A stretch of DNA of 55,854 bases, from contig NZ_JABIOQ010000023.1 in the NCBI RefSeq assembly GCF_018698455.1, forward strand, positions 1-55,854, given 5' to 3'. Below, in pieces: positions 13,212-55,141 of the stretch. The notes under the pieces are model-generated. The model was not told where the DNA came from, searched no databases, and worked only from the letters and a program-made list of their open reading frames with translations. The number at the start of each line of letters is the position of its first letter. Within the stretch, counting starts at the first letter, position 1. The stretch comes from Sulfurimonas sp. Lineage in GTDB: Bacteria > Campylobacterota > Campylobacteria > Campylobacterales > Sulfurimonadaceae. The position numbers were made by a program, and so were the translations under genes.

Positions 13212-13276
13212 TATAATAGTTGTTTATATTATCTTTAACAATCTCTAGGGCATAATAAGTTAAAAATATTATTATG
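13212..13276 (+). promoter_or_regulatory. Putative promoter and inverted repeat before the first large operon
   Basis: TATAAT at 13212-13217 is the best -10, without a clear -35. An inverted repeat with 8-nt perfect arms (CATAATAA 13251-13258, TTATTATG 13269-13276) lies just before the start codon at 13288 and could be an operator or leader hairpin. The 18-bp operator found before 39842, 52600 and 55164 is not present here. Confidence 0.35.
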
Positions 13277-13287
13277 GGTAAGTATAA

Positions 13288-26900: not shown

Positions 26901-27281
26901 TGGAATGATAAAAGGGTTGTAAAAGTAAAAAAAGATTTTGTGTCATCAGCTGACTCATTATGTTTGTGTAGAAACTGTGCAGCCAATATCAAGTTTGGGG
27001 ACTTTGAACCTATATTTGTAGATAAAATTAGTTCTATAAGCAACTTTGAAAGCCAAAGCTTTGAATTTATAATGCAAACTCTACACAGTGTAGTAGATGA
27101 TGGTTTGCATGATATATTTAAAGATCACATTGACTTTGATGACATTTTTGCTTTAGAAATTAAGTTAAATCAAGAAAGTAAAAATCTGTGTTTTACACGA
27201 GAACATTTAATACAGTTTATAACATTTTTGCAGTTAGAAGAAAAAAATAGTGTAGAAAATTCTATGTATGGAGTTGATTAA
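23916..27281 (+). CDS. UvrD/Rep-type (SF1) helicase with C-terminal Cys4/HNH-like domain
   Basis: The protein has 1121 residues. Walker A is DGAAGTGKSITA (about 229-240), Walker B LIVDEAQDYT (about 612-621), motif III-like ILTGDILQNLD (about 639). A late SKGKEFPLVI (about 805) and IMTRAQFELDF (about 828) correspond to SF1 motifs V-VI. A long coiled coil (about 300-570) is inserted between Walker A and B. The C-terminus has CQLC (about 974-977) and CLCRNC (about 1014-1019), a paired CxxC zinc motif preceded by YKGY, like treble-clef/HNH domains; no clear HNH catalytic histidine is visible. The ATPase is probably a DNA translocase. The next gene carries a similar tail, suggesting a shared partner or ligand. 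Confidence 0.8.
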   Translation: MAKEKFLSYLKYDYNKYIKKLDSLEEEIEKETATKIIASSPDVITSSTWQNAHNEESYSDAKERMDVVTAKKKSQYKSKDLQKWIDEGLFIRRLTFENGVSFYITTAPIEVNMSFGDDFIISPWNIEKEWTVKQFMQMDLGSDPSPKHGELDMLGYFTPLKDDLTKVRYKNLNGKEEFLSAKNTLSGKEIVDSNEASLIDTSSFFRLEFKLAEFGDQSRALYDMDNAIIDGAAGTGKSITALQKLKVLHESKNIMQDKMLVVVKNSEAIKNFEGLLKSDVLALDEVNIYHVDEFFNSLGIDSSISIEHLNSLQNSAESIKKKIESMIQLINLENIQHHFSILINDIGKEFFVNTIESMIEEIENDKDKTLQISDLRIDLEDINKSLLNEDVDDEEKLELIELLKSKTRKIEQLSGDNYKKALKTIHEDMESISTSLLTDIVGYSYNSKELTSLEVLLWLKTYINFHLNKIKNEQQLQEIIEEMKSLNPIAEDKLELDEIKKELDEVAFYASETPNDKELQKELRALKSKYKKQTALVNRHDVLPKKKVDLEEKTLKTFTIEPSEKRKYIGLIQKIYFAKAYIINTFLESLSEADRYLSLCYLLGQEHVVDTLIVDEAQDYTLVELELLRFQAKRIILTGDILQNLDPTHMQSWKNILNVDTVYGVENNVGDKILNIFNLKHNFRQTYQLANASYNFRQLLLDSGLEDIQQEYYLSEKEFNGKPYRLPTINQVKDSDNLYSFIEEKIEKITNRYSSKIPITIIYKTDVQKERYMSVLHDYKISEQSDKHTELDILLVDIFDSKGKEFPLVISDLDSLTDNEIYLIMTRAQFELDFYTEEERCPNKNLQALIDENWVDGGNILDFEANNIVIEDSLKEEDVGENESKTTASTSVIDKLKNIVKHYGNVKQKKDEIEPSIIKNEQKYKNDFLEQLNKQQLLPRKKDVVFLRKEVDKDTSRVNNEIKAFLYSTYKGYCQLCGFTFRKVNDGENSFEKFNWNDKRVVKVKKDFVSSADSLCLCRNCAANIKFGDFEPIFVDKISSISNFESQSFEFIMQTLHSVVDDGLHDIFKDHIDFDDIFALEIKLNQESKNLCFTREHLIQFITFLQLEEKNSVENSMYGVD

Positions 27282-30200
27282 ATGGATATAAAAGATTTAT
27301 ATGAGAAAAGAAAAGCTTATGTTGATAGTGCTAGAGATAATAATTTTGAAGAGGGTTTATTAAATCTTCTCACAAAGTTATATCCAGACAACGCTCATTT
27401 TATATATGAACTTCTGCAAAACGCTGAGGATACTGGAGCAACTAAAATATTGTTCGAGCTAGATAAGGAACAATTGATCTTTTCGCATAATGGGCTAAGA
27501 GCTTTTAGTTTCAAAGATGTTGAATCAATTACTAGTATTGGAAATAGTACAAAAACAGATGATATTAATAGTATTGGAAAGTTTGGTGTTGGTTTTAAAG
27601 CAGTTTTCTCTTATACAAAAACACCTAAAATATACTCACAAGATATAAGTTTTGAAATACTTGACTTGTTTATTCCTAAAAAAATACCTTCGATCAATAT
27701 AAATCAAGAATATTCTACGGTAATGGTTTTCCCTTTTGATCATAAAGATAAAACAGCCAAAAAAGCATTTGAAGAAGTTTCGAATCATTTAGATAATTTA
27801 TCTGACGTAACTTTACTATTTTTAAGTAATATTAATGAAATTGCATGGGATATTGGCAATGGTATATCAAGTTTAAAGCGAGTAGATGATGTTGATAATA
27901 AAATACAAATTCATAACTCAAAGACTCTTAATACATCATATTGGTTGCAATATAAAAAGTTCTTAAATGGTAGTAGTAAGTTATATGTTGCTATTGCATA
28001 TGAACTAAGACAAAATGAAGAAAAAGATATGTTTGAAATAGTACCCACTGATGGTACTGTTTCAATATTTTTTCCAGCGGAAAAAGAGACTAGTAAATTA
28101 AAGTTTCACATACATGCTCCTTTTGCTTCAACTGTTGCTCGAGATAGTATTATCAATTTGCCAGAAAACATTACTTTAATGCGTGATATAGCTGATTTAA
28201 CATCAGAAAGTTTATTTGATATTAGAGATAAAAATATGTTAAATGTTGATTTCTTGCATGTATTGCCTTTCCCTGAAGATTATTTATCAAACTTGTATAT
28301 TCCGATCCAAAAAAAGATTTATGAAGTTTTTCAAGAAGAAAAGTTACTTCCGACCGAATTGGGAGATTACGCTAGTGTAGAGTATTGTTACAATGTACCC
28401 AGTGATATAAAAAGAGTTCTAGCTGAAGAAGATTTAGCAACTTTAATTCAAAAGGATCCTAATCAAATATATTTTGTCAGAAGTCCATCAATGATAAATA
28501 GTAGAGCAGGGAAATTTCTTCAAAGTTTAAAGATAGAAAAATGGGAATGGAATGAATTAGAAAATTCAGTTCGTATATTAAATGATGAAATAAGTAGATT
28601 TGGTCCAGAATATATAAAATCAATTTGGCTTGAAAGTAAAGATATTGAATGGGTTCAAAAGCTATATGCATTGCTCTTAGATGCAATGAGAAAACATGAT
28701 GCAAATTTTCAAGACAGAAACTATGATAAAACAGTTTATCCATTGACGTCATTAATTAAACTTGAAGATACTTTTAATTTTAAACAATTAGATATATATT
28801 TTTTAGATCATGAAAATAGACTTGATGGAATTAAATATGTAAATGACTTAGTTTATAATACTGGTACCAATAAAAAACAAAAAGAAAAAGCAAAGCAATT
28901 TTTAATTGAAATGGGTGTAAAGGAAATAACTGAATCTGAGCAATTAAAAATCTTATTAGAAGAACAATATACTTTTACCAGTTATGAAGAAGACTTTAAT
29001 TTTAAGCAATACATAAACCATTTAAAAAGATTTCTTGCTTATCAAATTGCAGGTAATGATACTTCGTTTATTGGAAATTATAAAATCATTTTAGTCAAAG
29101 ATGGAGATAGAAAAAAATGGGTTAAACCAATAGAAATATTTTTAGATGAACCATATGAGAAGACAGGAATTTCATCCCTTGCTGATACGTTAAATTTATA
29201 TTCATTAGATGATCTTTATACTACTTTTCAAAATGATGAAGATTTTATTAAATTTTTAAAGTTGCTTGGTGCTAAGCATGAATTGAAAATAGATGAAGTG
29301 ACTATAGATAATAATCTTAATTTTATGATGTTAACTGATGGAAAATCAATGAATAAGTTAACATCAAGAGCCATTAATATAGATTATACGATTAAGGATA
29401 TTAATCAAATTTTAAAAAAAGCTACAATAGAAAAATCTTTACTTGTATGGAATACGATGTGTCATTCAGCACCATCTGCTCTTGAAGCTAGTTTTAGGCC
29501 CCATGGAAAAGCACCAGTTAAAACTACAAAATCTCAGTTAGTACAAGCTTTAATAAATACAAAATGGATACCTTCACTTAATGAAGAGTTTTGTTATCCA
29601 GCAGATATATCAAAAGATACTCTTCATCCACTGTTTAAGTATGAAAATAAAAATGGTTGGCTTGATGTAATAGAGTTTGGTAAAACTATAGAAAAAGAGA
29701 AAGCTGGATATAAAGAAAAAGAAGCAATTGTGCAAGAGCTTGGTTTTGAAAGTTTAGATGAATTAGACTTGTTAAAGCAATTAAAAGAGCAATATTCTAT
29801 TGACCAATTGCAGAACTTAATTAGTAAGAAAAAAGCAACAGTTAAAGATGAGAAAAAAGTTCAAACATTAAAAGAAGCAATTACTTCAAAGAAATCAGAT
29901 GGAGAAACGAAGCAATTTGTTGAATCTAATGATGTGGGAACTATTATTAAAGATGAAGAAAAGCATCAAGAGAATATCCATCAAGAAAATAAAAATTCTA
30001 CCAATACTATTACCCAAGTTGATAGAGTGGTTAAGAAGCAAGACACTGAAGAACTTCACAAGATTGATACCTTCTTATATGAAGAATATGAAGGACATTG
30101 TCAGATATGTGGAGATACATTTGCTCATGGAAATAAAAATGTTTCTAAAAATAAATCATTAAACCTTGGAGCAAATCGTGATATTAATCGTAAAGGGAAT

Positions 30201-30512
30201 ACTATATCCCTCTGCCATAAACATTGGGAAATATTTAACCGAGATTTAGTAGGGCATTCGTATTTAGGGCGGCTAGAAGATCAAGAAAGCTTATCAATGC
30301 AATTTATAGAAGGAAGCTTTGAATCCTATGATTGGGTAACAAAAGAAGATATAAATGAAAGAGACGATGCATTTTATATGCTTGATGATGAAGATCCTTT
30401 TAGCAGGGATAATTTATATTTTCTACCTATTAAAATTTTTGGAAAAACTAAATATATGAAATTTACTAAAACACATATTATGGCATTTATTGATGTATGG
30501 AATCATAATTAA
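27282..30512 (+). CDS. Sacsin-type GHKL ATPase with C-terminal zinc motif
   Basis: The protein has 1076 residues. The N-terminal sacsin/HSP90-like ATPase has the GHKL motifs FIYELLQNAEDTGATKILFE (about 40-59; catalytic E and Mg-binding N), FSHNG (about 67-71) and SIGKFGVGFKAVF (about 97-109). The middle region is long, helical and unrecognised. A basic, Gln-rich linker (about 860-925) leads to YEGHCQICGDTFAHG (CxxC at about 939-942) and LCHKHW (about 976-981), a CxxC...CxxH zinc site like the tail of the preceding helicase. Its ATG directly follows the preceding TAA, so translation is coupled. GHKL ATPases act as ATP-driven clamps or chaperones; a sensing or assembly role in defence is inferred. 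Confidence 0.8.
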   Translation: MDIKDLYEKRKAYVDSARDNNFEEGLLNLLTKLYPDNAHFIYELLQNAEDTGATKILFELDKEQLIFSHNGLRAFSFKDVESITSIGNSTKTDDINSIGKFGVGFKAVFSYTKTPKIYSQDISFEILDLFIPKKIPSININQEYSTVMVFPFDHKDKTAKKAFEEVSNHLDNLSDVTLLFLSNINEIAWDIGNGISSLKRVDDVDNKIQIHNSKTLNTSYWLQYKKFLNGSSKLYVAIAYELRQNEEKDMFEIVPTDGTVSIFFPAEKETSKLKFHIHAPFASTVARDSIINLPENITLMRDIADLTSESLFDIRDKNMLNVDFLHVLPFPEDYLSNLYIPIQKKIYEVFQEEKLLPTELGDYASVEYCYNVPSDIKRVLAEEDLATLIQKDPNQIYFVRSPSMINSRAGKFLQSLKIEKWEWNELENSVRILNDEISRFGPEYIKSIWLESKDIEWVQKLYALLLDAMRKHDANFQDRNYDKTVYPLTSLIKLEDTFNFKQLDIYFLDHENRLDGIKYVNDLVYNTGTNKKQKEKAKQFLIEMGVKEITESEQLKILLEEQYTFTSYEEDFNFKQYINHLKRFLAYQIAGNDTSFIGNYKIILVKDGDRKKWVKPIEIFLDEPYEKTGISSLADTLNLYSLDDLYTTFQNDEDFIKFLKLLGAKHELKIDEVTIDNNLNFMMLTDGKSMNKLTSRAINIDYTIKDINQILKKATIEKSLLVWNTMCHSAPSALEASFRPHGKAPVKTTKSQLVQALINTKWIPSLNEEFCYPADISKDTLHPLFKYENKNGWLDVIEFGKTIEKEKAGYKEKEAIVQELGFESLDELDLLKQLKEQYSIDQLQNLISKKKATVKDEKKVQTLKEAITSKKSDGETKQFVESNDVGTIIKDEEKHQENIHQENKNSTNTITQVDRVVKKQDTEELHKIDTFLYEEYEGHCQICGDTFAHGNKNVSKNKSLNLGANRDINRKGNTISLCHKHWEIFNRDLVGHSYLGRLEDQESLSMQFIEGSFESYDWVTKEDINERDDAFYMLDDEDPFSRDNLYFLPIKIFGKTKYMKFTKTHIMAFIDVWNHN

Positions 30513-38798: not shown

Positions 38799-38861
38799 AA
38801 AACTATAGATGAGTGGAAAATATTAGTTTAAATTTAGTGAAGATTTCAACAAGGAGAAGTT

Positions 38862-39773
38862 TTGTCAACAGCTACATTAGCAACTAGACTAGTCTTTATT
38901 ATTCATAAGCTAAGTCATGGAGAAATTCTAAATATAAAAGAACTCTCAACAGAGTTTTTAATCTCAGAACGTCAAGCTCAAAAAGACATCTTATTATTTA
39001 GTACCATTTACGAGATAGAAAGCCTAGGACAGCAAAACTATCGCCTTAAGAGTGGATTTAAAGTCCTAGATGCAAGTAATGAAGACACAGAAATAGCATT
39101 AGCATTACTTAAAAGTTTACAGCACAGTGCACTCCCGCAGATGAATGAATATATTGATGAAGCAATACCAGAAACAAGAGAGTATAAAAATATATTTGTT
39201 CTTAGTATTGATTATGAAGATATCTTGCACAAAAAAGAGTTTTATAAACTCCTTCAAGCGATAAAAACTCAAGAAAGTTGTTCATTTAACTATACGAAAA
39301 AAGATGGATCTTCTAAAAAGGTTCACATACATCCTTACAGAATTGCTAACTTTTCAAACTTTTGGTATCTATTAGCATATGATGTAGAAGCTCAAAAGTT
39401 AAAGAGCTACCATATCAATAGCATTGAATCAGTGGAGTTCGCAGGAGAAAACTATATAAGTAATGTAGCTATAGAAAAAGAGATAGAAGATACCTTTGCA
39501 AAGTTCAACTCTGTATGGTTTGATGGTAACTTGAAAAGTGTTGAACTAGAATTAGTTGCTAATGCTAAACTATATGCACAAAGAAATCTATCAAAGAACT
39601 CTACGGTTATTTCACAAGATGATGAAACATTGACAATCAGTTTTGAATATTACAACTCAGCAGAAGTGCTGTCATTTGTGAAGGGATGGCTTCCTGATAT
39701 TAAGATTATAGATAATAAGCCACTTGAAGATGAACTAAAGGAGCTTATGCAGAGATACTTGCAAAGCATATGA
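38862..39773 (+). CDS. WYL-domain transcriptional regulator
   Basis: The protein has 303 residues and starts at TTG 38862, with AAGGAG (38851-38856) 5 nt upstream; no ATG fits the N-terminal HTH. The winged HTH covers about residues 5-55 (LNIKELSTEFLISERQAQKD). The WYL domain covers about 135-200 (SCSFNYTKKDGSSKKVHIHP, NFWYLLAYDVEAQKLKSYHI), with a WCX-like C-terminal domain to the end. WYL regulators such as BrxR and CapW repress defence operons and respond to a nucleic-acid or nucleotide signal. The gene lies between the two large operons. An 18-bp operator-like palindrome begins 8 nt after its stop and recurs before two other units, so it is the likely repressor of these. Confidence 0.88.
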   Translation: MSTATLATRLVFIIHKLSHGEILNIKELSTEFLISERQAQKDILLFSTIYEIESLGQQNYRLKSGFKVLDASNEDTEIALALLKSLQHSALPQMNEYIDEAIPETREYKNIFVLSIDYEDILHKKEFYKLLQAIKTQESCSFNYTKKDGSSKKVHIHPYRIANFSNFWYLLAYDVEAQKLKSYHINSIESVEFAGENYISNVAIEKEIEDTFAKFNSVWFDGNLKSVELELVANAKLYAQRNLSKNSTVISQDDETLTISFEYYNSAEVLSFVKGWLPDIKIIDNKPLEDELKELMQRYLQSI

Positions 39774-39781
39774 TCAAATAG

Positions 39782-39815
39782 TGCGAACTCATAGGTCGTA
39801 AAATAGTTATAGAAT
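39782..39815 (+). promoter_or_regulatory. Promoter with shared 18-bp operator, site 1 (addB-like operon)
   Basis: The operator TGCGAACTCATAGGTCGT (39782-39799) is an imperfect palindrome. The -35 position (CTCATA, 39788-39793) lies inside it and TAGAAT (39810-39815) follows after 16 nt. The same geometry occurs at 52539 and 55108. The start codon of the first operon gene is at 39842. Confidence 0.65.
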
Positions 39816-39841: not shown

Positions 39842-42508
39842 ATGTCAATACACTTTATGTTAGTCTCAGATGCCCAGAGTGGTGCAACTATACGAGATGA
39901 GTTTGCCAAAATTAGTGCGACAAATATAAAAGTAGGTACTTTTGATATTTTGTTAGACCTTTTAATGGAGTATTGGCTACTACCAAGCCTTGATGATAAG
40001 AAATGGAAAACAAAGCTAACTCATCAAGCGATAAGAATGAAGGAAGCCTTTTGGGCTAAGAGTATACAAGTTGATGAAAAAAGCGTTATAGATGACTTGG
40101 ATACAAGTTTACAATTGCTTTTAAATACACTCTCAATAGAAAATAAAATACTTCCTACAATCAACAAAGATGATACTCGTTATAGTAAATATTATAATGA
40201 TCTGTGTGACTTACATGAAAAAATGGATTATATATTTCCTATGAGTCTTGAAAAGTCTCGTCTTTGGAATACACACTCTCATTTAAAACCCTTAGAAGAG
40301 GTATTTATTTATGCAGATGATTTACTTAACTTAGAAGTGTGGCAAAAAGAGATTGTTGCTAAACTGCAGCCAAAAACTGAAAATGAATATTCTAGGATAT
40401 ATAAACAATCTTTTCTAGCAGAGCTAGATACTAAAAATGAGGATCTTAAGCATCTTCAAAATATGTTGTTTTCTAGTGAACAGGCTAAAGGTATTCCAGT
40501 CATAAAGAATCTTCAATGGCTTGTTGCTAGAGATGTGCAGCAAGAGGTTGAAGTTTTAGCTGGCATGGTGCAAAACACTGGAGTTGATTTTAAAGAGATG
40601 GCGATTGTTATCCCTAAAGATGGTTGGTATAAAGAGTTTTTAATTCAAACATTTAATACTTTTAATATACCTTTATCAAGAGCAGGGCAGATTGAGGAGT
40701 ATTCCGATATTGGAACTCAATGGATTTTTGATGCCCTGCAAGCTCAAGAAGTATTTGCACCACCTATGGTGTTTGCATCGCTTCTATCATCCCCATTGAT
40801 GCCACTTTCTAATTATCATAGACAGAACTTAGCTTCTATCGCACTTGATAATAACTGGAGAGATAAAGAGGGGAATATAAAAGAGGGTATTTTAAAAGAC
40901 TTGAGTGGAAATGCCCGGGATTTAGTAATGATAATAGTTTCGTGGCAAGAGATGAAAAATGAGCAGCCTGCAAGGGAGTTCCTTGATGAATTAGAAGAAC
41001 TTTACTCATTGATAACTTATAGAGAAAATATACAACTACACAAAGAGAGATTTAAATCCTTAGTTCAAGATTTAAAAGTATATTTTGAAAGTTTCCCTGA
41101 GACTAACTTTAGGACTTTACTTAATCAAGTTCAGCCATATGCGTTGCAAGAAAACTCTAGTAGAGAATCATATTTAAATAGTATTCATGTTGTTCATGAA
41201 GATGATTGTATGATCCAAAAGGTAAAACATCTTTTTGTATTGGGTTTTAATGATGGGCATTATCCACGAAAACTTGAAAACGTGGGTGTTTTCTCTCGAA
41301 GCAATTGGCATTTGTTGGGTCAAGAACTAAATCTAAAACTAGACCATCAAGAGCAATTTTATGAAAAGGCAAAATCAGTATTTAAAAGGCAGCTGCAATG
41401 TGCACAAGAGAGTATCACATTTTTATCTTCAGCTTTAGATTTACAGGGCTCTTCTCAAAGTCCATCAAGTAGCTTGAGTGATATAGCATTTTGTTTTTAT
41501 AATGGAGAAGGGGAGTTTGAACCAGAGGAGTTGCTTATATCCCTTGAAAAAGAGGATACTGCCCCTTTCTTTTATGCTACAAATAATGAAGTTCAAATGA
41601 AAGAGTATAAAGAGCTCATTTCAGATGATCTACAGTTCTCTCAAAATATTTTTGAGCTAAGAAAGAATAGTGATGGTAGCTTAAGACCAGAATCACCAAG
41701 TAGTTTGGAGAAATTGATGATATCCCCATTAGGATGGTTCTTATATAGACAAGGATTAGAGCCTAAAACTTGGGATGTCGAAGAGTTAAGTGTGGCAACA
41801 CAAGGGACAATTGCTCACGGTGTATTTGAAGATATGTTTTCACCAGAGAACCCTACATACGATTTGTCTAATATTGATGCTTGTATAGAGAAGAGAATTC
41901 AAGAGGAAGCAATATTTTTAACTAAAGCACATAGAAAATTAGATTATGAGCAGTTAAAATCGAGTATTTTAAAAGCAGCAGATGAGTTTAAAGCATTACT
42001 GGATAATACCAATACAGATGTAAAAAGCACCGAAGAGAAGTTAACTGGAGAGATTTTTGGGATACCAGTAGCAGGAAGAACAGATGCTATATTGACTATT
42101 CTAGGAAAACAGCTTGTTCTTGATTATAAGAAGTCTGGTTCTAAGGGTCGTATTAAAAGAATGGAATCAGGTTATGATCATCAACTGTTTTTATACAGAG
42201 TAATGCTAAATGATAGCAGTGCGCTTACAGCTTACTATACAATGAATGATGCAACTCTTGTAGTAGATGAAAATATTACACTAAAAAGTGGAGATAATTA
42301 TACCATTGTGGGTTTAGATAATGATTGTACTGGTAGTGCTTCAGCGTTAATACAAGAGAGAGTTGATGAAATTTCTAATGGAGAATTAAAGCTCAATTGT
42401 GAAGATGATAATAAAATATGGGAAACTAGGGGTGTAACAGCCTCATATACCTTGGAAGGTTCGCCTCTTATTGGCTTGTTTATAAAACCAGAATGCGAGG
42501 AAGTATAG
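39842..42508 (+). CDS. AddB/RecB-like PD-(D/E)XK nuclease protein
   Basis: The protein has 888 residues. The C-terminal nuclease domain begins at SPSSLEKLMISPLGWFLYRQ (about 619-638), has GTIAHGVFEDMF (about 654-665), and carries the metal-binding residues in GRTDAILTI (Asp about 746) and LVLDYKKSG (Asp-Tyr-Lys about 760-763). The N-terminal 550 residues resemble an inactivated helicase, as in AddB: a late HLFVLGFNDGHYPRK (about 461-475) matches the motif V-like position, but no Walker A is seen. The Cys cluster that binds Fe-S in classic AddB is not evident. It directly abuts the AddA-like gene (TAG then ATG), so the two probably form a dual-nuclease complex. Divergence and context suggest a defence paralogue, not the housekeeping AddAB. 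Confidence 0.78.
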   Translation: MSIHFMLVSDAQSGATIRDEFAKISATNIKVGTFDILLDLLMEYWLLPSLDDKKWKTKLTHQAIRMKEAFWAKSIQVDEKSVIDDLDTSLQLLLNTLSIENKILPTINKDDTRYSKYYNDLCDLHEKMDYIFPMSLEKSRLWNTHSHLKPLEEVFIYADDLLNLEVWQKEIVAKLQPKTENEYSRIYKQSFLAELDTKNEDLKHLQNMLFSSEQAKGIPVIKNLQWLVARDVQQEVEVLAGMVQNTGVDFKEMAIVIPKDGWYKEFLIQTFNTFNIPLSRAGQIEEYSDIGTQWIFDALQAQEVFAPPMVFASLLSSPLMPLSNYHRQNLASIALDNNWRDKEGNIKEGILKDLSGNARDLVMIIVSWQEMKNEQPAREFLDELEELYSLITYRENIQLHKERFKSLVQDLKVYFESFPETNFRTLLNQVQPYALQENSSRESYLNSIHVVHEDDCMIQKVKHLFVLGFNDGHYPRKLENVGVFSRSNWHLLGQELNLKLDHQEQFYEKAKSVFKRQLQCAQESITFLSSALDLQGSSQSPSSSLSDIAFCFYNGEGEFEPEELLISLEKEDTAPFFYATNNEVQMKEYKELISDDLQFSQNIFELRKNSDGSLRPESPSSLEKLMISPLGWFLYRQGLEPKTWDVEELSVATQGTIAHGVFEDMFSPENPTYDLSNIDACIEKRIQEEAIFLTKAHRKLDYEQLKSSILKAADEFKALLDNTNTDVKSTEEKLTGEIFGIPVAGRTDAILTILGKQLVLDYKKSGSKGRIKRMESGYDHQLFLYRVMLNDSSALTAYYTMNDATLVVDENITLKSGDNYTIVGLDNDCTGSASALIQERVDEISNGELKLNCEDDNKIWETRGVTASYTLEGSPLIGLFIKPECEEV

Positions 42509-45500
42509 ATGTCAGAAATAGATTTTACAAACCTAAATGTTATATCTGCAGGTGCTGGTTCTGGTAAGACATATACTATACAGCATACATTAGCTAGCTG
42601 GTTGCAAGAATATCCTGACACTATTAGACCAGATAAGATTTTAGCAGTAACTTTTACAAAGATGGCTGCTAGTGAGATGCAATCAAGAATTCGAGCTGCA
42701 TTACTTAGTTCTGGTAACATAGAAGCTGCAAAGAAAGTAACATCATCACAAATCTCTACAATACATAGTTTTGGACAAAACATTATTCATTCTTTTGCAT
42801 ATGAATCTGGGATGTCACCAAAAGTACGTCAACTAAGTGAGGCTGAAGAGAAAATATTATTACAATTATCGCTAAGTGGACATAAAGAGATTAATACTAT
42901 TCTGCAAAAGCTAGAAGTTTTAGGTTATAAAGGAAAGTATAACGGTAAAGAGTTCTCAACAGCACTAGAGCAATTACAAAAAAAAGTTCTTCAGTTAAGT
43001 AACTCTTTAAGAACAATAGGGGCCACTAAAGAAAAGCTCGATCAATATATAGAACAATTATCACATGAAATACGATTAATATATGGAACACCTCTTGAAG
43101 CAAAAAGCTTAAATGAGGATTTGCATAACGCAGTAAAAGCGATGCTAAGTAGCTATCCAAATAATATGAAAGATGAATTTGGTGGAAATGCAACAGCAGA
43201 TAAAGCATTAAATGCTGACTATAAAGCGCTAAAAAAAGCATTAGATATCAATACCATAGAGAATGATTGGAATTTATGGAAAACACTACAAACACTAAGA
43301 GTTACTTCTGTAAAAGATGATGATTATATTGCTTTGGCCCAGGAAGTAATGGAAGCTGCTAAAAAACTTCATTTACACCCAGGGCCTCTAGAAGAAGCTC
43401 TTTTTCATATAAAAATGTTGTTGCAAATTAGTATAGATACATTAGAAAACTACAATGAAGCGAAGCGTGAAAATGCTCTTATAGATTTTTCAGATATGGT
43501 TCATTTGTCAAATTCGATTATGAATAACGATTCATGGATAAATGAAATGGCTGAGACTTATGACTGTTTAGTTATTGATGAGTTTCAAGATACAAATCCT
43601 ATCCAGTTTGCTTTGCTGTGGAAGTTTAAAGAAGCAGGTTTGAATACCATTATAGTTGGAGACTTGAAACAGTCTATTATGGGCTTTCAAGGAGCTGATT
43701 CCTCTTTGTTTGAATCGTTAATTAGTGGAGATAATGCTACACAACATCAATTGGAGAGTAATTGGAGAAGTACACCAGCACTTATGGAGTTTATTAATGC
43801 AATGGGAAATAGCTTGTATGGAGAAAAATATACTCATTTAACTCCAATGGCAAAGTTTGATTCCATGTTGACACCATTACAAATAATTGACTTTGATGAT
43901 GGCAACTGGAGTGCCAATGGTAGTGCTAAGAGTGGTAAAGAGAGTTATTCAAAAGAGCATACCAGTGTTATCAGTGTGCATATTAAAGATCTCATTGCTT
44001 CAAAAACAGTTATTTATGATAAAAATACAAAAGAAAATAGAGCTATTCAAGCTTCGGATATTGCTGTTTTAGGACCAACGCATTCTGGACTAGGAAAAAT
44101 GGCAAACTCACTCAGAGAAAGTGGACTAGAGGCTCAAATTAAACAAGATGGATGGTTTAATTCAAGGATAGTTCAGGTTGCATTTTATGCATTATCATAC
44201 TTAGCAAACCAACAAGATAAACATGCTGCACTTTATATCTTAGTGACTGAATTAGGGGATGTGAATCTACAAGAAGCTTTAGATATGTATATAAAAGATA
44301 AAAAGTTTTCTCATGATTTACTTCAAAAATTAGATAGTTTAAGAGAAAATATATCAATGTTAACGTTATCTGGACAGCTTATAGCAATGATAGAAACTTT
44401 GGACTTGTGGAGTTATGTAGTTGAGTATAAAGATGGTTTGCAGCAACGTGCTAATCTTTTAAAATTTATTGACCTATGCTCTGAATTTGAATCATTACAA
44501 TATGAATCACTTAATGCTTTGGGAATCTATGGGAGAAACATCAATAGTTTTTTAGCATGGTTGAACTTGAATGAAAACGATGCTCAGCCTAAATCAAAGT
44601 CTATCAATTCTCAAGCAGTACAATTACTTACTTGGCATGCGTCAAAAGGTTTAGAGTGGCCAGTTGTTATCGTACTTGGATTAGATAATGATAAAGCACC
44701 AACTTTGCCAGATATATCGCTAGGTTACACAGATTCATCTCGAGATAAGCCACTTAATAATACTTATATACAGTTTTTTCCAGAATTTAAAGATAGTAAT
44801 ACTAATGAAGCTTTTATTAAAATACTAGATGCATCTGCACATGCAACAGCAGAAAACCTTTTATATGTTGCAATGACTCGAGCAAGAGAACAGCTGATAT
44901 TACCTTGGCCATCTTTTAAAGAAGCCAAAGTTGGAGAGTTTAGTATTATGCATAAATTAATGCATAAATGTAAAATGCAAGTGAATAGAACTGGTATTAC
45001 TATGAAAGCTTTAGAAGAGGATTTATTTAAGTCATCAGTTGTATTAGCAAATATTGTAGATGAAAGCAATGAAGGAACTCAACACTCTTTAATTAATTAT
45101 GGACGAATAGCAATAAAACACTTAGAAAAAAAAGCTCAAATACCTGCACAAATATCTCCATCAAAAATGCAAGAAGATATTTCCATAGACCAAACCAGTG
45201 TTTCTATACAAGACTATGGAGCAAAAGTTGATTTATCTAAAATCACTATGAAAGCATCTGAATTAGGGACTATTTTACACCATTGCTATCATGCATTTTT
45301 AGTAGATATTGATATGAAGGAAAGATTATTTTCCCATTTATCTGCATCTATGCCCCAAGAAATACTTGAGCAAGTATATGCTCAAACTAGGGAGTTTGAA
45401 AAATTTGCACAGAATAATTTGGCAATGAGAAGTATCAAATGTGAAGTACCAATTCTTGGTAAAACACAAGAAGGCAGTGTTGTTAGTGGTAGTATAGATT

Positions 45501-45709
45501 TATTAATTGAGACAGAACAAGGCTACTGGGTAATAGATCATAAAAGTGATAAGGTAGATGATGATGGTTTTACATCACAGTTTACACATCACTATCCTCA
45601 ACTAATGACGTATGTAAAGCATACAAAGTTAGATAAGCCTATTTTAGGGGTTGGAATAAACTGGATTAGATATGGGATGATGAATTTAAAGGAAGTATCT
45701 TATGATTAA
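42509..45709 (+). CDS. AddA-like UvrD helicase-nuclease
   Basis: The protein has 1066 residues with a full SF1A motor and C-terminal RecB-type nuclease. Motifs: ISAGAGSGKTYTIQHT (about 11-26), AVTFTKMAASEMQ (about 49), STIHSFGQNI (about 83), LVIDEFQDTNP (about 353-363), IIVGDLKQSIMGFQGA (about 384-399), ESNWRSTPAL (about 413), LLTWHASKGLEWPVVIVLG (about 708-726) and LYVAMTRAREQL (about 785). The nuclease shows LGTILHHCYHAF (about 917), GSIDLLIETEQGYWVIDHKS (about 994-1013), with Asp and DHK as the catalytic signature. The expected function is processive unwinding and degradation of DNA ends. It directly follows the AddB-like gene and overlaps the next by 8 nt. Confidence 0.88.
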   Translation: MSEIDFTNLNVISAGAGSGKTYTIQHTLASWLQEYPDTIRPDKILAVTFTKMAASEMQSRIRAALLSSGNIEAAKKVTSSQISTIHSFGQNIIHSFAYESGMSPKVRQLSEAEEKILLQLSLSGHKEINTILQKLEVLGYKGKYNGKEFSTALEQLQKKVLQLSNSLRTIGATKEKLDQYIEQLSHEIRLIYGTPLEAKSLNEDLHNAVKAMLSSYPNNMKDEFGGNATADKALNADYKALKKALDINTIENDWNLWKTLQTLRVTSVKDDDYIALAQEVMEAAKKLHLHPGPLEEALFHIKMLLQISIDTLENYNEAKRENALIDFSDMVHLSNSIMNNDSWINEMAETYDCLVIDEFQDTNPIQFALLWKFKEAGLNTIIVGDLKQSIMGFQGADSSLFESLISGDNATQHQLESNWRSTPALMEFINAMGNSLYGEKYTHLTPMAKFDSMLTPLQIIDFDDGNWSANGSAKSGKESYSKEHTSVISVHIKDLIASKTVIYDKNTKENRAIQASDIAVLGPTHSGLGKMANSLRESGLEAQIKQDGWFNSRIVQVAFYALSYLANQQDKHAALYILVTELGDVNLQEALDMYIKDKKFSHDLLQKLDSLRENISMLTLSGQLIAMIETLDLWSYVVEYKDGLQQRANLLKFIDLCSEFESLQYESLNALGIYGRNINSFLAWLNLNENDAQPKSKSINSQAVQLLTWHASKGLEWPVVIVLGLDNDKAPTLPDISLGYTDSSRDKPLNNTYIQFFPEFKDSNTNEAFIKILDASAHATAENLLYVAMTRAREQLILPWPSFKEAKVGEFSIMHKLMHKCKMQVNRTGITMKALEEDLFKSSVVLANIVDESNEGTQHSLINYGRIAIKHLEKKAQIPAQISPSKMQEDISIDQTSVSIQDYGAKVDLSKITMKASELGTILHHCYHAFLVDIDMKERLFSHLSASMPQEILEQVYAQTREFEKFAQNNLAMRSIKCEVPILGKTQEGSVVSGSIDLLIETEQGYWVIDHKSDKVDDDGFTSQFTHHYPQLMTYVKHTKLDKPILGVGINWIRYGMMNLKEVSYD

Positions 45710-46853
45710 TATGTCTTTTTTGACATTACCAGATCCAAGAATTAAGCCATCTGGATCACGGGATCCATTGGGGTTTCAAACTATTTGGGTTAAATTGGGT
45801 CGTGAACTTGTGGGTAGTAATTTAACTACAATCACATCTTCTATTGATAATTTTATCATAGCACTTTTAGCTAGTCATTATTCTTTCCAAGAAATAGATG
45901 AAGATAAAAAAATGGAAGTATTTTTTAAAGTTGAACAATTAGGGGCTTATTTTAGAATTGCAGGTAATTATAAAAATAATATTATGGGAATTACTCAGGC
46001 TCAGAAAAACTATACTACGAATAATATAGTTCTTGGGGATGATGGGCAAATATTTGGTAACCAAAAAACATCTGGCTTATGGGGATATTATTCAAGTGCA
46101 CTAATGATGTCTGGTTTAGTTAATAAGGATAAGGATCAAGTACAAGAAGAAGGTAGCGAAATTGTAAATAAGTTCTTAAAAGTTTTCTCTTTTGATGATT
46201 TTTTAGAGTTGTCATTTATTGGGACTGATACTTTAGAAAAGCATGCTGGCAGCTTCATAAAGGCACTTGGATTCGTATATAAAGATATGGTGCATTTTGT
46301 ACTTCAAAAATCTAAATTCGATATTTATAGTAAAACAGAGCTTTTTTTTCAATCAAGTGTAGATAATACAACTTATCAATTATTTTATGACTGGATGCAA
46401 AGAAACTATACTAATGATCCAATAACAATCAAGTTACTTGAAATAAAAGAAATAGATAAAGCATTATGGATAGCAAGTAAAATTTTTGAATATTGTAGAA
46501 CACAAAAAGGTAAGACAGTTAATGAAGTGGCTAAGAGTATTGAAGAATCAACATTGGCAATGATTAAACTATCTTCATCTGATTTAAAAATAAAAAAATT
46601 TATTGAATTATGGAATAGTAAGCAGTTTAAAGAAGTTATTTATGAACTAGAGTTTATTCATTCAGAATCTATGAAAAATAGATCGAGTGCGAAATGGCTG
46701 ACAATAAAAAATGATAAACTAAATGTTACTGTTGCAGCAAAGATGAGCTTGCCAAAATCAATTGAAAAGATACCTTGGCAATATAACTATTTTTTGCACT
46801 CATACATTAGTGTTGCCTTTCAGGTTTATACAGAAGGCAAAAGTCATGAATAA
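45702..46853 (+). CDS. Uncharacterised 383-residue protein of the second operon
   Basis: I do not recognise this protein. ATG 45702 has AAAGGAAG (45687-45694) upstream and overlaps the AddA-like gene by 8 nt; the next gene overlaps its end by 8 nt, so it is locked into the operon. The N-terminus (LPDPRIKPSGSRDPLGFQTI) is rich in Pro and Gly, followed by WVKLGRELVGSNLTTITSSI. The rest is mostly helical, with no signal peptide, membrane segment, zinc motif or nucleotide-binding loop that I can see. Its place between an AddA-like enzyme and a PLD-fold protein suggests an adaptor or recognition subunit. Repetition of the gene order in other genomes would support this. Confidence 0.7.
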   Translation: MINMSFLTLPDPRIKPSGSRDPLGFQTIWVKLGRELVGSNLTTITSSIDNFIIALLASHYSFQEIDEDKKMEVFFKVEQLGAYFRIAGNYKNNIMGITQAQKNYTTNNIVLGDDGQIFGNQKTSGLWGYYSSALMMSGLVNKDKDQVQEEGSEIVNKFLKVFSFDDFLELSFIGTDTLEKHAGSFIKALGFVYKDMVHFVLQKSKFDIYSKTELFFQSSVDNTTYQLFYDWMQRNYTNDPITIKLLEIKEIDKALWIASKIFEYCRTQKGKTVNEVAKSIEESTLAMIKLSSSDLKIKKFIELWNSKQFKEVIYELEFIHSESMKNRSSAKWLTIKNDKLNVTVAAKMSLPKSIEKIPWQYNYFLHSYISVAFQVYTEGKSHE

Positions 46854-48825
46854 TGCAGTAGTTACTGATAGTTATATAGAAGCTCTAAAAGGCAAAAGAG
46901 TCATTGAAGCAATATTTACTACATATACCTTGGATATAGATTTTTTTGAAGCAGAAGTATTATGGACTTTAACAGGTAAGGAAATGAATAAGTTTTCACC
47001 AAATAATGATGTTCGAAGAAGAGAACTGGCACATTACTATCAAAAAAATAAATTACCAATTAGTGTTTTTTTTGATAGAAAGGTCAATGACTGGGATACT
47101 GAAGAATCTGAACAAGCAATTAGTCCACTTATCGAATACTTGTTAGTACCAGTTCATAGCGGGAATCATGCTTTCCACCCAAAAATTACATTGCTCTTTT
47201 TAGAGGATTCTATCACAAATGAAAAGAGTATTTTATATGTTAATGGCTCTAATAATCTTACATATTCTGGTTGGTGGGAAAATGTTGAATGTGTAAATAT
47301 GGGTTTGCTGTCTGAGAAAGAGGCAGTGTCTCGATCATTATTGGAAGAATGCCAAAAAAGTATCGAATATTTATCTGAGAAAAGAAAAGAAATTGATAAA
47401 GACGATTCATTTTTATTATTTGATGAATTTTTAGTAAAAGAATATCGTTTTGACAACAATAGGGACAAATACTTTTCTTCTTATAAAAATAATACTACTT
47501 TTTCTGAGTTTATTAAGAGTGTAGTTGCACTTGAAAACTATGATGTATTAGAAGTGATTTCTCCATATTTTGCTGAACAGGAAACAACAGTTATAGAGTT
47601 ACTTTCACTAATATCTAATCAAGGATGCAAAGTTAAACTTTTTTTACCAAAGAATGAACAACATGAACTTCTATGTAATGAAATACTCTTTGATAAAATA
47701 AATGAGCAAAAGAATATCTTCTGGGCTGACCTTGATCAAAACATACAAGAAGAGTTACAAATAAAAACAGTGATTAAAACTGATAGTGAAGAGCATAATA
47801 AAATAAGAAATGTACATGCAAAAGTTTTTCATTGGCACAATAGTGAGACGAAAGAGTCAATTTATTTTACTGGATCTCTAAATTTGAGTTACAAGGCATT
47901 TAATGAAAATGAGGAAGCTGGAAAATTATTTTTTGTAGATAATGGGCAAGAGCACTTAATAAGTATTAAAGAAGATAAGCCTGTTTTTGCAGATGATTTG
48001 GATATTTTTGAGAAAAATATAGATTCTACAAATCAGACAGTTTATATGTTTTCTTTTTTATCTTTAATCTATGATTGGAAACTAAAGACACTAGTTGCAA
48101 GTGTTACTCTCGATACAGTCAATATATATGATTTTATTTTGTTATTAGAGAGTCAAGAAATAAACCTCAAGAAAAGTATTGAATTTGTTGATTTCAATAC
48201 AATTGAGAAAGTGATTAGTTCTAATCCATATCTTGATATTAAATATGATAACAAGATACAGAAAGTATTTGTAAATCAAAAGAATTTTACACATAAGCCA
48301 TTAGATCTTGGAAGTTTGTCTGTGAAAGAAATATTAGATATATATTCAAAATTTGAAATACATAATAAATCTAGTGAACTAATACAAAAAGCAATACAAA
48401 GAGCACTTAATACGAAGGGTATAGAATCTGACATTGACTTTTTAAATGATGATATAAGACAAAAAAACTTTTTCTCAGAATATTCAGAAATTTTCTATGG
48501 TTTAAGGCACTTAAAAAAGCTATTACAAGAAGATTCAGCCAAGCAAGAGTATTTTTTAGATGAAACTACAAAGGCTATGGATAGCATACCTATACTTATA
48601 CAAGAAACTTCAGAAGATAAAAACATGGATATTGTGTCAAAGTATATAACATTTTTATATATAAAACAGATGTATGATGAATTTGGTAGAAATGTAGAGT
48701 TTCTTGATAAGTTTATATCAAGACTTAAAGAAGAAAACAGTACACAATTCACAGAAAATAAAGACTTTATAGAGTGGTTTGAGTCTGCATTTATTATGGA
48801 GTTTTCTAGTGGAGCGTCAACTTGA
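46846..48825 (+). CDS. Phospholipase D-fold protein with two HKD motifs
   Basis: The protein has 659 residues from ATG 46846; the longer reading from 46762 overlaps the previous gene by 92 nt and is rejected. Two PLD half-sites are seen: HPKITLLFLEDS (His about 111) with YVNGSNNLTYSGWWENVE (about 131-148), and NVHAKVFHWHNS (His about 325) with YFTGSLNLSYKAFNENEE (about 340-357). Each has the HxK(x)nGSxNL core, and the following Glu takes the usual acidic position. This gives one composite active site, as in DNA-cleaving PLD nucleases such as BfiI or in DISARM DrmC. The C-terminal 280 residues are helical and unrecognised. It overlaps the next SNF2 gene by 4 nt, a common pairing in defence loci. 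Confidence 0.82.
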   Translation: MNNAVVTDSYIEALKGKRVIEAIFTTYTLDIDFFEAEVLWTLTGKEMNKFSPNNDVRRRELAHYYQKNKLPISVFFDRKVNDWDTEESEQAISPLIEYLLVPVHSGNHAFHPKITLLFLEDSITNEKSILYVNGSNNLTYSGWWENVECVNMGLLSEKEAVSRSLLEECQKSIEYLSEKRKEIDKDDSFLLFDEFLVKEYRFDNNRDKYFSSYKNNTTFSEFIKSVVALENYDVLEVISPYFAEQETTVIELLSLISNQGCKVKLFLPKNEQHELLCNEILFDKINEQKNIFWADLDQNIQEELQIKTVIKTDSEEHNKIRNVHAKVFHWHNSETKESIYFTGSLNLSYKAFNENEEAGKLFFVDNGQEHLISIKEDKPVFADDLDIFEKNIDSTNQTVYMFSFLSLIYDWKLKTLVASVTLDTVNIYDFILLLESQEINLKKSIEFVDFNTIEKVISSNPYLDIKYDNKIQKVFVNQKNFTHKPLDLGSLSVKEILDIYSKFEIHNKSSELIQKAIQRALNTKGIESDIDFLNDDIRQKNFFSEYSEIFYGLRHLKKLLQEDSAKQEYFLDETTKAMDSIPILIQETSEDKNMDIVSKYITFLYIKQMYDEFGRNVEFLDKFISRLKEENSTQFTENKDFIEWFESAFIMEFSSGAST

Positions 48826-51800
48826 ATAAGCTGTCAACACAATATAAAGAAGAATTTATTGATTTTAGTGCTGGTAATGCAGAATTTAATGATTTAGCAA
48901 GTATTCAGCAAGAGGGATCAATTGCTTTATATAATATTTTAAAAGAAAATACTGAAAGCATTGCTTATTTAGCAGATGAAGTGGGCATGGGAAAAACTTT
49001 TATCGCATTAGGTACAGTGATGCTCATGAGGTATTTAAATCCATCCCTTCGAGTATTATATATTGCACCAAACAGGCAATTAAAAGATCAATGGATAGAT
49101 GAGTACCGTCGATTTATTAAAAACCATGTTAAATTGTCTCATGGACATATTAGATCGTTTTCTGGTAGTAGTGCTGTTCCTTATACAGACTGCAAGTCTT
49201 TAGCAGAATTAATTAAAAATACTTCAGAAGGTTATTTTGCTGATTATTTTGTTCAGATGAATAGTTTTAGTTTTGCAATGGATAGTAAACAAGAAAATGA
49301 TCATGATTTTTATGCGAAAAAATTGAAATTGTTAAAAGAGTATATTCCTGCATATACAGAAAGCATATTATCTGATGAGAAAAGTATTGAAAATAATGAA
49401 GAAGTAAAACAGCACTATGCTTTAGCACTAAACTATGTATTACCAAGGTTTGATCTCATTGTAGTTGATGAATCACATAAGTTTAAAAATGGTCTCAGAT
49501 CTTCAACAAGAAATCAAATGCTTGCTTTGATACTAGGTACATCTGATAAAGGAATTGGAAAAACAACTTTGAGTGATGAGCAAAAAAGAATTCAAAAAAA
49601 GTTAACTTCCAAAACATTACTTTTGTCAGCTACTCCATTTGATAGAAATTTGGGACATATAAGAAACCAAATAGAATTGTTTTCTGGAGAGAAACTTGCA
49701 CAAAAATATTTTCCAGTGGATGATAAAGGAAACATAGAGTTTTCAATAAAAGATAAAGAAAAGCTCAAAAATACTTTGAGAAATTTTTTAGTAAGAAGAC
49801 TTAATAGAATTAAGATAGGTAAAGATACAGCTACAAGGAATATGTATAGGTTAGAACACAGAGACAATGCTGTAGATTTGAAAGGTTTTCAAAATAAATT
49901 AGTTATGGCATTGGTACAAAAACATGTTGGTGATTTAATTGAAGATAAACAAACAAGTAGCCCTTCTTTTCAAATGGGTTTATTGGCTTCTTTTGAAAGT
50001 TTTGCTGATTCTGCTGGTGTTAAAGTCTTTGATGGGGATGAAAAAGTTGATGATGGTAAAGATCAAGCAAGAGATGCTAATTTAATACAACAATTAAATA
50101 ATAGTTATAAAGAGGCTGGTTTAGGGTTTATTATGCCTCATCCAAAAATGGATGAAGTAGTCAATAATCATAGCGGAGAGAATTTTGCAAATGGAGAAAA
50201 GCATCTTTTTTTTGTTCGTAGGGTAAAAAGTGTTTCTGAGTTAGTACAAAAATGGAACCACCAATACAATCAATGGTTAATTAACTATTTAAATGACAAC
50301 AGTAAGTATATATGGAATGATTTGTATGAGGAATATAAGCTTGCTAACCCTAATAAACAATATAGTAGTAATTCTGATTTAGCAAATGAAGATACTGATA
50401 TAGAACCTGAAGACTTAAAAACAGATACCTTCTTTTCTTGGTTTTATAAGGGAAAGCATTTAGGGGAAGCCAGCTCAATTGCTGATAATATTCCAAATAA
50501 AGACTTCAAACTTAAAATGACAAAAAAAGAGGATCCATTTTCTCTTTATTTTGAACTAAACTGGGTCCTATATTTTGTTGAAAAGTATAACTTGAAAATT
50601 AATCTAGACAGTAGTATATTTCAAAAATCATATTTATCATATGTAAAAAAATATAACTTCAATGATAAAAATAAGACTAACTATTTTAATAGATACCATG
50701 CAGCACAATACGCAGCTCTAAACTGTATTGAATGTTATGAAGCAAAGATAATTATGGATACTATGTATGAAAATATTGAAATTCATAATGATGTAGATAT
50801 GAATCTGTTTAATAAAGAAGTCATAAATAGTGATCTAAATTCAAGATCACTATTTAATGAGTTGGATCTTATTAATGATAATAACTGTATTGAAACTTTT
50901 ATTTTAAAAGAATTGATATTAACTCAATTTCGACAAGATCATTTAATGGTGGATTTGTATTTAGCATTATTAGTAAGTGAAAGTATGGACGATTCTTTTA
51001 TAGATAATTTTATAGACTTATATAAAAAGCAAGCTGAATATAATAGTGATATAACATCTTTCTCTATTATTAGAAATGTTAAAAATAATATATCATTAAT
51101 ATGTGAAACAAGTTTACAAAGCTATTCAAGAGAAATACACGGATTAGTGTACAAGGGATTAGTTAATGTATATAATAGAAATAAAAATCGTATAAATTTA
51201 AGTCCTTTAGACCCAGTTGTAGGTGTTTCGGGCGCTACTGGAAATAAATCGGAACCTGCAAGAAAATTTCGTTTACCAGGTTATCCAATTGTAATGGTGG
51301 CTACTGATGTAATGCAAGAGGGGGTAAACCTACATACATTTTGCAGAAGTATTACCCATTATGGTCTTTCTGGTACACCAATACATATTGAACAGAAAAA
51401 TGGTAGAGTAGATAGGATTAATTCACTTACTCACCGAAAAATACAAAACAATAAATATGCTTCATTATTAGATTTTCATAGTGACAAAATTCAGGTTAGA
51501 TTTCCATTTGTCCGACAAAGTTATGAATCCTTTCAAGTTAGAAGACTATCGCATAACCTTAATGAATATTTAGAAAGTTTACATGATATAGAAGTCGCAG
51601 GCTCTTCCGATGAAAAACTTTATATTGATAAAGAGTTAAATAATAACTTGCCTATACCCGAAGCATATACTAAGTATTTAGAAACACCTTTTGAAATCAT
51701 GGAAAGTCAAAAATGTATTCCTGGTAATCTTTTTCATTCCATAGAGCTCAAAGCTAATGAAACCTTTAATCTTTTAAAGCTTTTATCAATGCATATAGAA

Positions 51801-52538: not shown

Positions 52539-52572
52539 TGCGAATTGACAGTTCGTATAATCATAATACACT
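52539..52572 (+). promoter_or_regulatory. Promoter with shared 18-bp operator, site 2
   Basis: The operator TGCGAATTGACAGTTCGT (52539-52556) contains a perfect -35, TTGACA (52545-52550). TACACT (52567-52572) follows after 16 nt. It is the most symmetrical of the three sites (TGCGAA...TTCGT). It drives the 52600-55097 unit. Confidence 0.72.
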
Positions 52573-55107: not shown

Positions 55108-55141
55108 TGCGAACTGATAGGTCGTGTTTTCTAGTTATACT
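55108..55141 (+). promoter_or_regulatory. Promoter with shared 18-bp operator, site 3
   Basis: The operator TGCGAACTGATAGGTCGT (55108-55125) matches site 1 at 17 of 18 positions. CTGATA (55114-55119) is the -35 position and TATACT (55136-55141) follows after 16 nt. The start codon at 55164 has AAGGAG upstream. Confidence 0.68.

Follow-up and report, generated by a model that had tools for sequence, protein, structure and literature searches.

A WYL regulator gene followed by three palindromic boxes at predicted promoters of an AddAB-like nuclease module, behind an ARMADA-like operon, in Sulfurimonas

Background

Transcription factors of the WYL family are already known to control defence islands, and WYL activators with the promoter geometry reported below are also known. 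As described in the available parts of the literature, the defence-associated members BrxR and CapW are repressors, while the activators DriD, PafBC and SiwR serve in DNA damage. DriD of Caulobacter crescentus, according to the accessible part of its description (PMC12340889), is a WYL activator gated by single-stranded DNA (ssDNA), with the consensus ATACGAC-N7-GTCGTAT; its sites overlap the -35 element, all lie at one distance from the -10 element, and do not serve its own gene. SiwR of Mycobacterium smegmatis, in the available portion of its report (PMC10693628), is a WYL activator with a palindrome in the gap of about 60 bp between regulator and target, and two of its arginines, three residues apart, are required for ssDNA binding. 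Among the WYL proteins of defence islands, the best-known are BrxR and CapW, which act as repressors of defence operons; in the accessible sections of the reports (PMC9122601, PMC9122589, PMC9122588), BrxR_Efer has an R-BOX1 just downstream of the promoter and an R-BOX2 composed of 11-bp repeats with a 5-bp spacer, BrxR_Acin binds from -51 to -27 at a pseudo-palindrome overlapping the -35 element, and the CapW site lies over the -10 element.

Two kinds of candidate or established defence systems are relevant to the genes around the regulator described here. ARMADA type II, as presented in the available part of its description (Bell et al. 2025, PMC12458937), has the gene order DrmD/BrxHII, PglX/DrmMI, YprA/DruE and, in last place, a GajB-like gene whose product has a RelE-like domain at its N-terminus. 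For the PADLOC candidates named PDC-M27 and Zac, no paper was found in a literature search.

Here we analyze a stretch of 55,854 nt from Sulfurimonas sp. (contig NZ_JABIOQ010000023.1 of assembly GCF_018698455.1, positions 1 to 55,854), referred to as the window, in which a WYL gene stands between an ARMADA-like operon and an AddAB-like nuclease module. In the accessible parts of the literature searched, we found no description of three boxes on an AddAB-like module behind an ARMADA-like operon, nor of a family-wide promoter rule for this bacterial group.

Results

The WYL gene and its product

The WYL gene (38862-39773, forward strand) codes for a transcription factor of 303 aa and ends with a TGA at 39771-39773. 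As proposed in a preliminary description of this DNA, it has its own Shine-Dalgarno sequence, AAGGAG at 38851-38856, located 5 nt upstream of a TTG start codon at 38862. The protein probably has an N-terminal helix-turn-helix (HTH), followed by the WYL domain (PF13280, E = 4.3e-13, residues 128-192) and by a WCX-like C-terminus, the match to which is weak by itself (Pfam E = 0.056). The HTH can be seen only by alignment with relatives and in a profile match, spanning 12-197, to a CapW chain. A phmmer search with the protein against the PDB yielded no match; a profile made from it and 14 related proteins matched WYL chains there, among them PafBC, CapW and BrxR, and its alignment extended through the C-terminal region of 8tp8 and 9pfq, two chains which we take to be DriD. 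The AF2 model of the protein alone, built without an alignment, was poor (pLDDT 44). Four further WYL matches are present in the same genome, one of which may be the gene on contig C9 considered below, and among the WYL matches listed for 227 further genomes of the bacterial family, identity is 32% at best.

In our own alignment, the stretch taken as the SiwR arginine pair reads FRLDR in PafBC and YHINS in the window WYL protein, and the two arginines apparently correspond to His and Ser. With the pair apparently absent, the usual ssDNA contacts may be missing, which counts against canonical ssDNA binding by this protein. The 63-nt gap separating the WYL gene from the upstream operon (38799-38861) revealed no terminator-like site in a simple scan in which the terminator count was at background, suggesting that the WYL gene may be co-transcribed with the first operon, of which it is possibly the last gene.

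Three copies of one box

The preliminary description had noted a single candidate operator 8 nt after the WYL stop codon, none upstream of the WYL gene, and none at the first large operon. The copy behind the WYL gene is indeed there (S1, TGCGAACTCATAGGTCGT, 39782-39799, with a CGAA-N7-GTCG core), and neither the gap preceding the WYL gene (38799-38861) nor that preceding the first operon (13161-13287) contains one. The count, however, has to be revised, since two further copies are found on the same forward strand: S2 (TGCGAATTGACAGTTCGT, 52539-52556), with a CGAA-N7-TTCG core whose centre reads TTGACA, and S3 (TGCGAACTGATAGGTCGT, 55108-55125), again with a CGAA-N7-GTCG core.

Allowing up to 3 mismatches, the 18-mer TGCGAACTCATAGGTCGT is matched twice in the window, where 0.02 matches would be expected, and 0 of 100 shuffles gave two matches; it is not a chance repeat. 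The degenerate form TGCGAAYTNAYAGKTCGT was derived from the three copies and matches them exactly by construction (39782, 52539 and 55108, all on the forward strand); what is not by construction is that the 2.23-Mb genome contains no other match within 2 mismatches, the next-closest sites being nine with 3 mismatches, as compared with 29 sites at up to 3 mismatches for the reversed control. The core, CGAACT-N3-AGTTCG, is a palindrome of 6-bp arms and a 3-bp spacer, made imperfect by one mismatch in each copy. Taken alone at 3 mismatches, this pattern occurs in the window at the background level (13 matches as compared with 11.8 expected), so that only the one-mismatch copies are meaningful. 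Viewed as half-sites, two copies are GAA-N7-GTC and one is GAA-N7-TTC, with the N7 spacing of DriD. On the basis of mechanical ORF lists, a box is present in each of the three intergenic gaps of at least 60 nt between the WYL stop and position 55164, and in none of the six such gaps before the WYL stop. The number, position, geometry and recurrence of the boxes are shown by the sequence.

Across 396 other genomes of the phylum, the box (at most 1 mismatch) occurs nine times, every time inside a reading frame, which makes orthologous footprinting impossible. Eight pattern matches in viral contigs are likewise all inside reading frames, five of the eight falling in a single sequence, and a single-protein scan of viral contigs gave no match. 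At the loci of relatives of the SF2 helicase, on one plasmid and in four further genomes, nothing comes within 2 mismatches of the palindrome, and no Rfam family was detected in the window.

Promoter geometry

Each box covers the -35 region of a predicted promoter, and at all three promoters in the window a -10-like hexamer begins exactly 12 nt after the downstream half-site: TAGAAT at 39810-39815 behind the GTC half-site of S1, TACACT at 52567-52572 behind S2, and TATACT at 55136-55141 behind S3, all on the forward strand. The start codon follows 40-45 nt past the same half-site. When 20 offsets were allowed, a common -10 offset for the three promoters was obtained in a fraction of 0.0096 of 5,000 shuffles; with locus L182 (contig C9 of the same genome, G000) added as a fourth promoter, the fraction was 0.0004, L182 having been noticed before the offset test and being also one of the 11/33 upstream boxes counted below. 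The TTGACA at the centre of S2 is a perfect -35 element, 16 nt from the -10 hexamer.

At L182 (G000:C9, 104-5528), a divergent WYL gene faces three ORFs, with a box TGACAAGTTTTGTCA from which it is 12 nt to TAGAAT. By eye, the ORFs code for an ATPase of the AAA type, a PLD-like protein and part of an SF2 helicase (56% identity), the last lying at the contig end.

The corresponding distance could be estimated for DriD from the accessible part of PMC12340889. In an alignment of three published promoters, for which we chose the register of didA and bapE, an invariant CAA follows the end of the half-site at a distance of 12 nt, and an invariant G is found two bases before the CAA (G at position 10, CAA from position 12, with further invariant positions 0, 1, 2 and 6). 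As G-14 is named as conserved by the authors of that report, the -10 element of DriD promoters would begin 12 nt past the half-site, as it does in the window.

Genes behind the boxes

All genes behind the boxes are on the forward strand. S1 is followed by five of them: an AddB-like PD-(D/E)XK protein of 888 aa (39842-42508; PF12705, E = 1e-12), with relatives near WYL genes on plasmids; an AddA-like UvrD helicase of 1066 aa with a C-terminal PD-(D/E)XK domain (42509-45709; PF00580, E = 3e-46; PF12705, E = 6e-7); a PDC-M27A-like protein of 383 aa (45702-46853; PADLOC PDC-M27A, E = 6e-15); a ZacB-like protein of the PLD family, 687 aa with a TTG start (46762-48825; PF13091, E = 2e-11; ZacB, E = 3e-17); and a PDC-M27C/ZacC-like helicase of 1221 aa, also with a TTG start (48822-52487; PDC-M27C, E = 1e-79). 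The first gene after S2 is a 94-aa ORF from the ORF list (52600-52884), for which there was no Pfam family above the cut-off and none in PHROGs, and it is followed by an SF2 helicase of 732 aa (52899-55097; PF04851, E = 4e-19; PF00271, E = 1e-14). Behind S3 lies a 122-aa ORF, also taken from the ORF list (55164-55532), for which 227 other genomes of the bacterial family gave a single match, weak and partial (E = 1.7e-4). For the AddB-like protein, the matches in 396 other genomes of the phylum were all short and partial, none better than E = 2.7e-5.

Judged by the positions of the boxes, there would be three putative units: the AddB/AddA/PDC-M27A/PLD/PDC-M27C-ZacC operon, a pair formed by the 94-aa ORF and the SF2 helicase, and the 122-aa ORF. 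The earlier view that the operator controls the following operon is probably correct as far as position and promoter geometry go, but incomplete, with three putative units in place of one. The PADLOC candidates PDC-M27 and Zac share with this module the M27A-, ZacB- and M27C-like proteins in the same order, while the module in the window differs in having the WYL, AddB-like and AddA-like genes in front.

The first operon and the distribution of its parts

The operon upstream of the WYL gene (13288-38798, forward strand) is ARMADA-like, contains seven genes and is without a WYL box. Its genes are, in order, a DrmD-like SNF2 helicase, an IIG/DrmMI-like methylase, an SNF2 gene, an unknown gene, a TmtA-like gene, a DruE/YprA-like helicase and a GajB-like UvrD gene, with matches to DruE, DrmD/BrxHI-II and IIG/DrmMI/PglX, and to DEAD and MZB domains. 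The last gene matches GajB at E = 5e-34, and no RelE family was found in it by Pfam at E = 1e-3. The operon thus shares with ARMADA type II, in the same order, the BrxHII/DrmD-like helicase, the PglX/DrmMI-like methylase, the YprA/DruE-like helicase and the GajB-like gene in last place; it differs in the SNF2, unknown and TmtA-like genes added between methylase and YprA.

The YprA gene is found at 77-80% identity in three others of 228 genomes of the bacterial family (own genome included), two of these loci being cut by contig ends. In genome G012 the DrmD-like helicase is 85%, the methylase 73%, YprA 80% and UvrD 81% identical to those in the window, and the contig has no match to the WYL or nuclease-module genes, but it ends about 0.4 kb past UvrD. 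A WYL gene of 31% identity is located on another G012 contig with no other window gene found around it, and in this genome a distant link of WYL to the ARMADA-like operon is conceivable. Comparison of the window with loci L170 and L171 shows the stretch between methylase and YprA to be swapped (21008-30512 in the window), with the SNF2, unknown and TmtA-like genes here and different genes in G012.

The nuclease module was encountered elsewhere, among the matches listed in a contig scan (L067-L071), on contigs of metagenome-assembled genomes (MAGs) from Desulfuromonas (L067) and Pseudomonadales (L070). Both carry WYL, AddB, AddA, M27A, PLD and helicase genes in this order, L067 with a split AddB frame and an extra ORF after AddA, and neither has a match to the methylase of the first operon in the approximately 20 kb examined. 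Relatives of AddB on plasmids were inspected for 8 of 10 matches: a WYL gene adjoins AddB/AddA in L059 and L063, in L060 and L064 it is found one or two genes further upstream, and in L065 it is several kb downstream; L061 has no annotated WYL gene, and L062 and L066 are unannotated. Four alphaproteobacterial plasmids combine WYL with AddB/AddA and have no methylase annotated in the stretch shown, where annotation is incomplete.

A box and a 12-nt distance in the bacterial family

We sought related boxes near WYL genes of the bacterial family. The sample consisted of 70 loci, 69 of them from among the WYL matches listed for the family (part of a longer list) plus L182, and was reduced to 64 by removal of near-duplicates; shuffles were first-order Markov resamplings. 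An earlier test for 6-3-6 palindromes at these 64 genes, in which 13 spacers were tried, found 12 at spacer 3 (null 5.9, maximum 10, 30 shuffles), an excess that, with so many spacers, may be due to chance. It led to a GAC/GTC test, the DriD consensus being already known when this was chosen. Within 250 nt upstream, GAC-N8-GTC is present at 23/64 WYL genes (100 shuffles: mean 0.83, maximum 4) and GAC-N7-GTC at 7/64 (mean 0.71, maximum 3); the strongest spacer, N8, is not predicted by DriD. Spacers 3 and 16 gave 3/64 each, equal to the shuffle maximum, the remaining ones gave 0-2, and within the WYL genes themselves N7 and N8 were seen in 1/64 each. The CGA-N9-TCG form is not enriched upstream of other WYL genes (1/64, null 0.77), and the GAA-N7-GTC and GAA-N7-TTC half-sites of the window depart from the GAC/GTC of the bacterial family.

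The distance to the -10 hexamer recurs as well. For boxes just downstream of a WYL gene, the hexamer begins exactly 12 nt on in 12/18 cases (300 shuffles: mean 0.38, maximum 3; any gap, 4), a count that includes related loci, L021/L034/L035 and L205/L219 being close relatives, and corresponds to about nine groups by eye. Upstream boxes, when read towards the divergent gene, have it at 12 nt in 11/33 cases (mean 0.98, maximum 5; any gap, 8), again with related loci included; the same 33 boxes, read towards the WYL gene, have 2 at gap 12, and 6 and 5 at gaps 8 and 11. In ten relatives the box lies 2-16 nt past the WYL stop, so that the 8-nt arrangement in the window is a recurring one. In some relatives, by eye, the box is just downstream of the -10 element of the regulator's own gene, a repressor-like place, and such WYL proteins may both activate and repress. 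The -35 elements of these promoters are weak and say little, since 24 of the 25 WYL-adjacent promoters with the N12 distance match TTGACA at no more than 3 of 6 positions, as do about 84% of random positions.

Genome-wide, GACA-N6-TGTC-N12-TANNNT has 273 matches in 228 genomes, as compared with 126 in the reversed control, indicating that single matches are often due to chance and that the signal is in clusters; at least three matches are present in 34 genomes versus 8 in the control. Among four contigs examined, G018:C57 (L258) has eight and G019:C10 (L259) has seven boxes with TANNNT 12 nt on, and 15/18 box readings on these two contigs have a possible start codon 34-57 nt past the box. The G018 contig carries a WYL gene, and there is none for the G019 contig among the WYL matches listed. 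Both loci are apparently large WYL regulons.

Outside the bacterial family, a box upstream of AddB was not significant (3/12 loci, null mean 1.57, with L069 lacking upstream sequence). Two individual loci can be mentioned: on the Desulfuromonas contig L067, the WYL gene that belongs to the AddAB module is preceded by two exact DriD-type CGAC-N7-GTCG boxes (5950-6110), and L068, a Methylococcaceae MAG contig, has an ATACGAC-N7-GTCG box near position 7125, with TAGACT 12 nt on, 163 nt before an AddB-like gene.

Discussion

We consider it most likely, with a probability of about 0.58 on the sequence evidence, that the WYL protein acts as a ligand-gated activator of three units. It would be a dimeric transcription factor recognizing CGAA-N7-KTCG, an inverted repeat of 15 bp and a variant of the GAC-N7/8-GTC of its relatives, and would control three promoters downstream of its own gene: that of the AddB-AddA-M27A-PLD-helicase operon, that of the 94-aa ORF and SF2 helicase, and that of the 122-aa ORF. 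The regulator would probably be made at a basal level together with the upstream ARMADA-like operon, and binding of an infection- or damage-derived ligand to the WYL domain would lead it to load RNA polymerase. Its binding to the boxes, its dimeric state, the sign of its action and the nature of the signal are what we infer from sequence. A ligand-sensing switch, as suggested in the preliminary description, is the usual mode of WYL proteins and agrees with position and promoter geometry here. In favour of control by this protein are the exclusivity of the boxes to the locus within the genome and their occurrence in 3/3 gaps after the WYL gene versus 0/6 before it.

The closest parallel in the available part of the DriD report (PMC12340889) is in the half-site spacing (CGA-N9-TCG), the position of the site over the -35 element, the 12 nt to the -10 element in several promoters, and the lack of action on its own gene, matched in the window by the lack of a box before the WYL gene. 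The two differ in that DriD controls DNA-damage genes, while the WYL gene in the window neighbours a defence island, in the half-sites (CGAC/GTCG in DriD, CGAA/KTCG here), and in the SiwR-type arginine pair, which seems to be absent here. SiwR, in the accessible part of PMC10693628, resembles the present case in the location of its gene directly upstream of the target operon and in a palindrome upstream of the -10 element; it differs in its DinB-like targets and in its 19-bp palindrome, described as spanning the -35 to -10 region.

In BrxR (BREX) and CapW (CBASS), the available sections of the reports describe WYL regulators of about 300 aa that are likewise located in defence islands and bind inverted repeats at promoters, and repression is their documented mode, which is a point against activation. 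A repressor of this type, covering the -35 region of three promoters and leaving when its WYL domain binds an infection signal, would block sigma, as the pseudo-palindrome of BrxR_Acin over the -35 element might suggest; moreover, S2 holds a consensus -35 element, TTGACA, inside the box, and such a promoter should not need an activator. Steric blocking, however, does not need a fixed distance of 12 nt to the -10 element at many promoters, whereas an activator contacting the polymerase does need a strict distance, which favours activation. The sites are also unlike that in the window, as far as the accessible descriptions go: CapW sits over the -10 element and R-BOX1 of BrxR_Efer downstream of the promoter, while the present box is over the -35 region, and BrxR arms are 10-11 bp with a 5-bp spacer, as opposed to 6-bp arms with a 3-bp spacer here. 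In addition, the promoter on which BrxR or CapW acts is that of its own gene or operon, and no box precedes the window WYL gene. We regard repression as the main, though less probable, alternative. Given boxes over the -35 region, with a half-site exactly 12 nt before the -10 hexamer as at DriD promoters, the WYL protein is most likely an activator.

Two other explanations were considered. The preliminary description took the two operons for halves of one defence system, with a constitutive methylase half and an induced nuclease half, in which self-marking would precede cleavage. The operons are adjacent and on the same strand, and only the second has the box, which is in favour of this view, but the parts occur apart: no WYL gene was found on the contig of the G012 operon, which ends about 0.4 kb past UvrD, the modules in L067 and L070 (among the matches listed) are without the methylase in the approximately 20 kb examined, and for the four alphaproteobacterial plasmids the annotation of the part displayed, incomplete as it is, lists WYL and AddB/AddA but no methylase. 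We find this explanation unsupported and very improbable. With a WYL gene directly upstream of the module elsewhere and absent near the G012 operon, WYL is more closely associated with the nuclease module than with ARMADA, and as the ARMADA-like operon and the module each occur without the other nearby, the window looks like two defence systems side by side. It is also imaginable that the boxes are bound by a different regulator encoded elsewhere and that the adjoining WYL gene is incidental, given that the genome has four further WYL matches, one maybe the C9 gene; yet the boxes exist only behind this gene and have WYL-family geometry, and the loci of the SF2-helicase relatives (four genomes and one plasmid) have no palindrome within 2 mismatches, and we give this explanation hardly any weight.

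A broader and more speculative proposal, which we think rather unlikely, is that many defence-island WYL proteins of the bacterial family may be DriD-type activators with one promoter grammar (GAC-N7/8-GTC, 12 nt, -10 element), often serving several promoters each, and that the window may contain a two-layer circuit, in which the WYL protein encoded behind the ARMADA-like operon would sense DNA made during infection, such as ssDNA that the first layer leaves behind, and turn on the AddAB-like helicase-nuclease layer. If true, a defence WYL protein with the DriD promoter layout to the base would unite the repressor-type WYL proteins of defence with the activator-type ones of DNA damage, and would provide a simple, searchable promoter rule predicting co-induced defence genes together with their regulator.

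Two further features of the window lie upstream of both operons. An ORF for an HNH endonuclease with weak similarity to the HNH of Cas9 (11979-13160) is located just before the first operon, and a phage-type D5-like DNA primase/helicase (9640-11274), also ahead of the defence operons, suggests that these are carried by a mobile element or a satellite.
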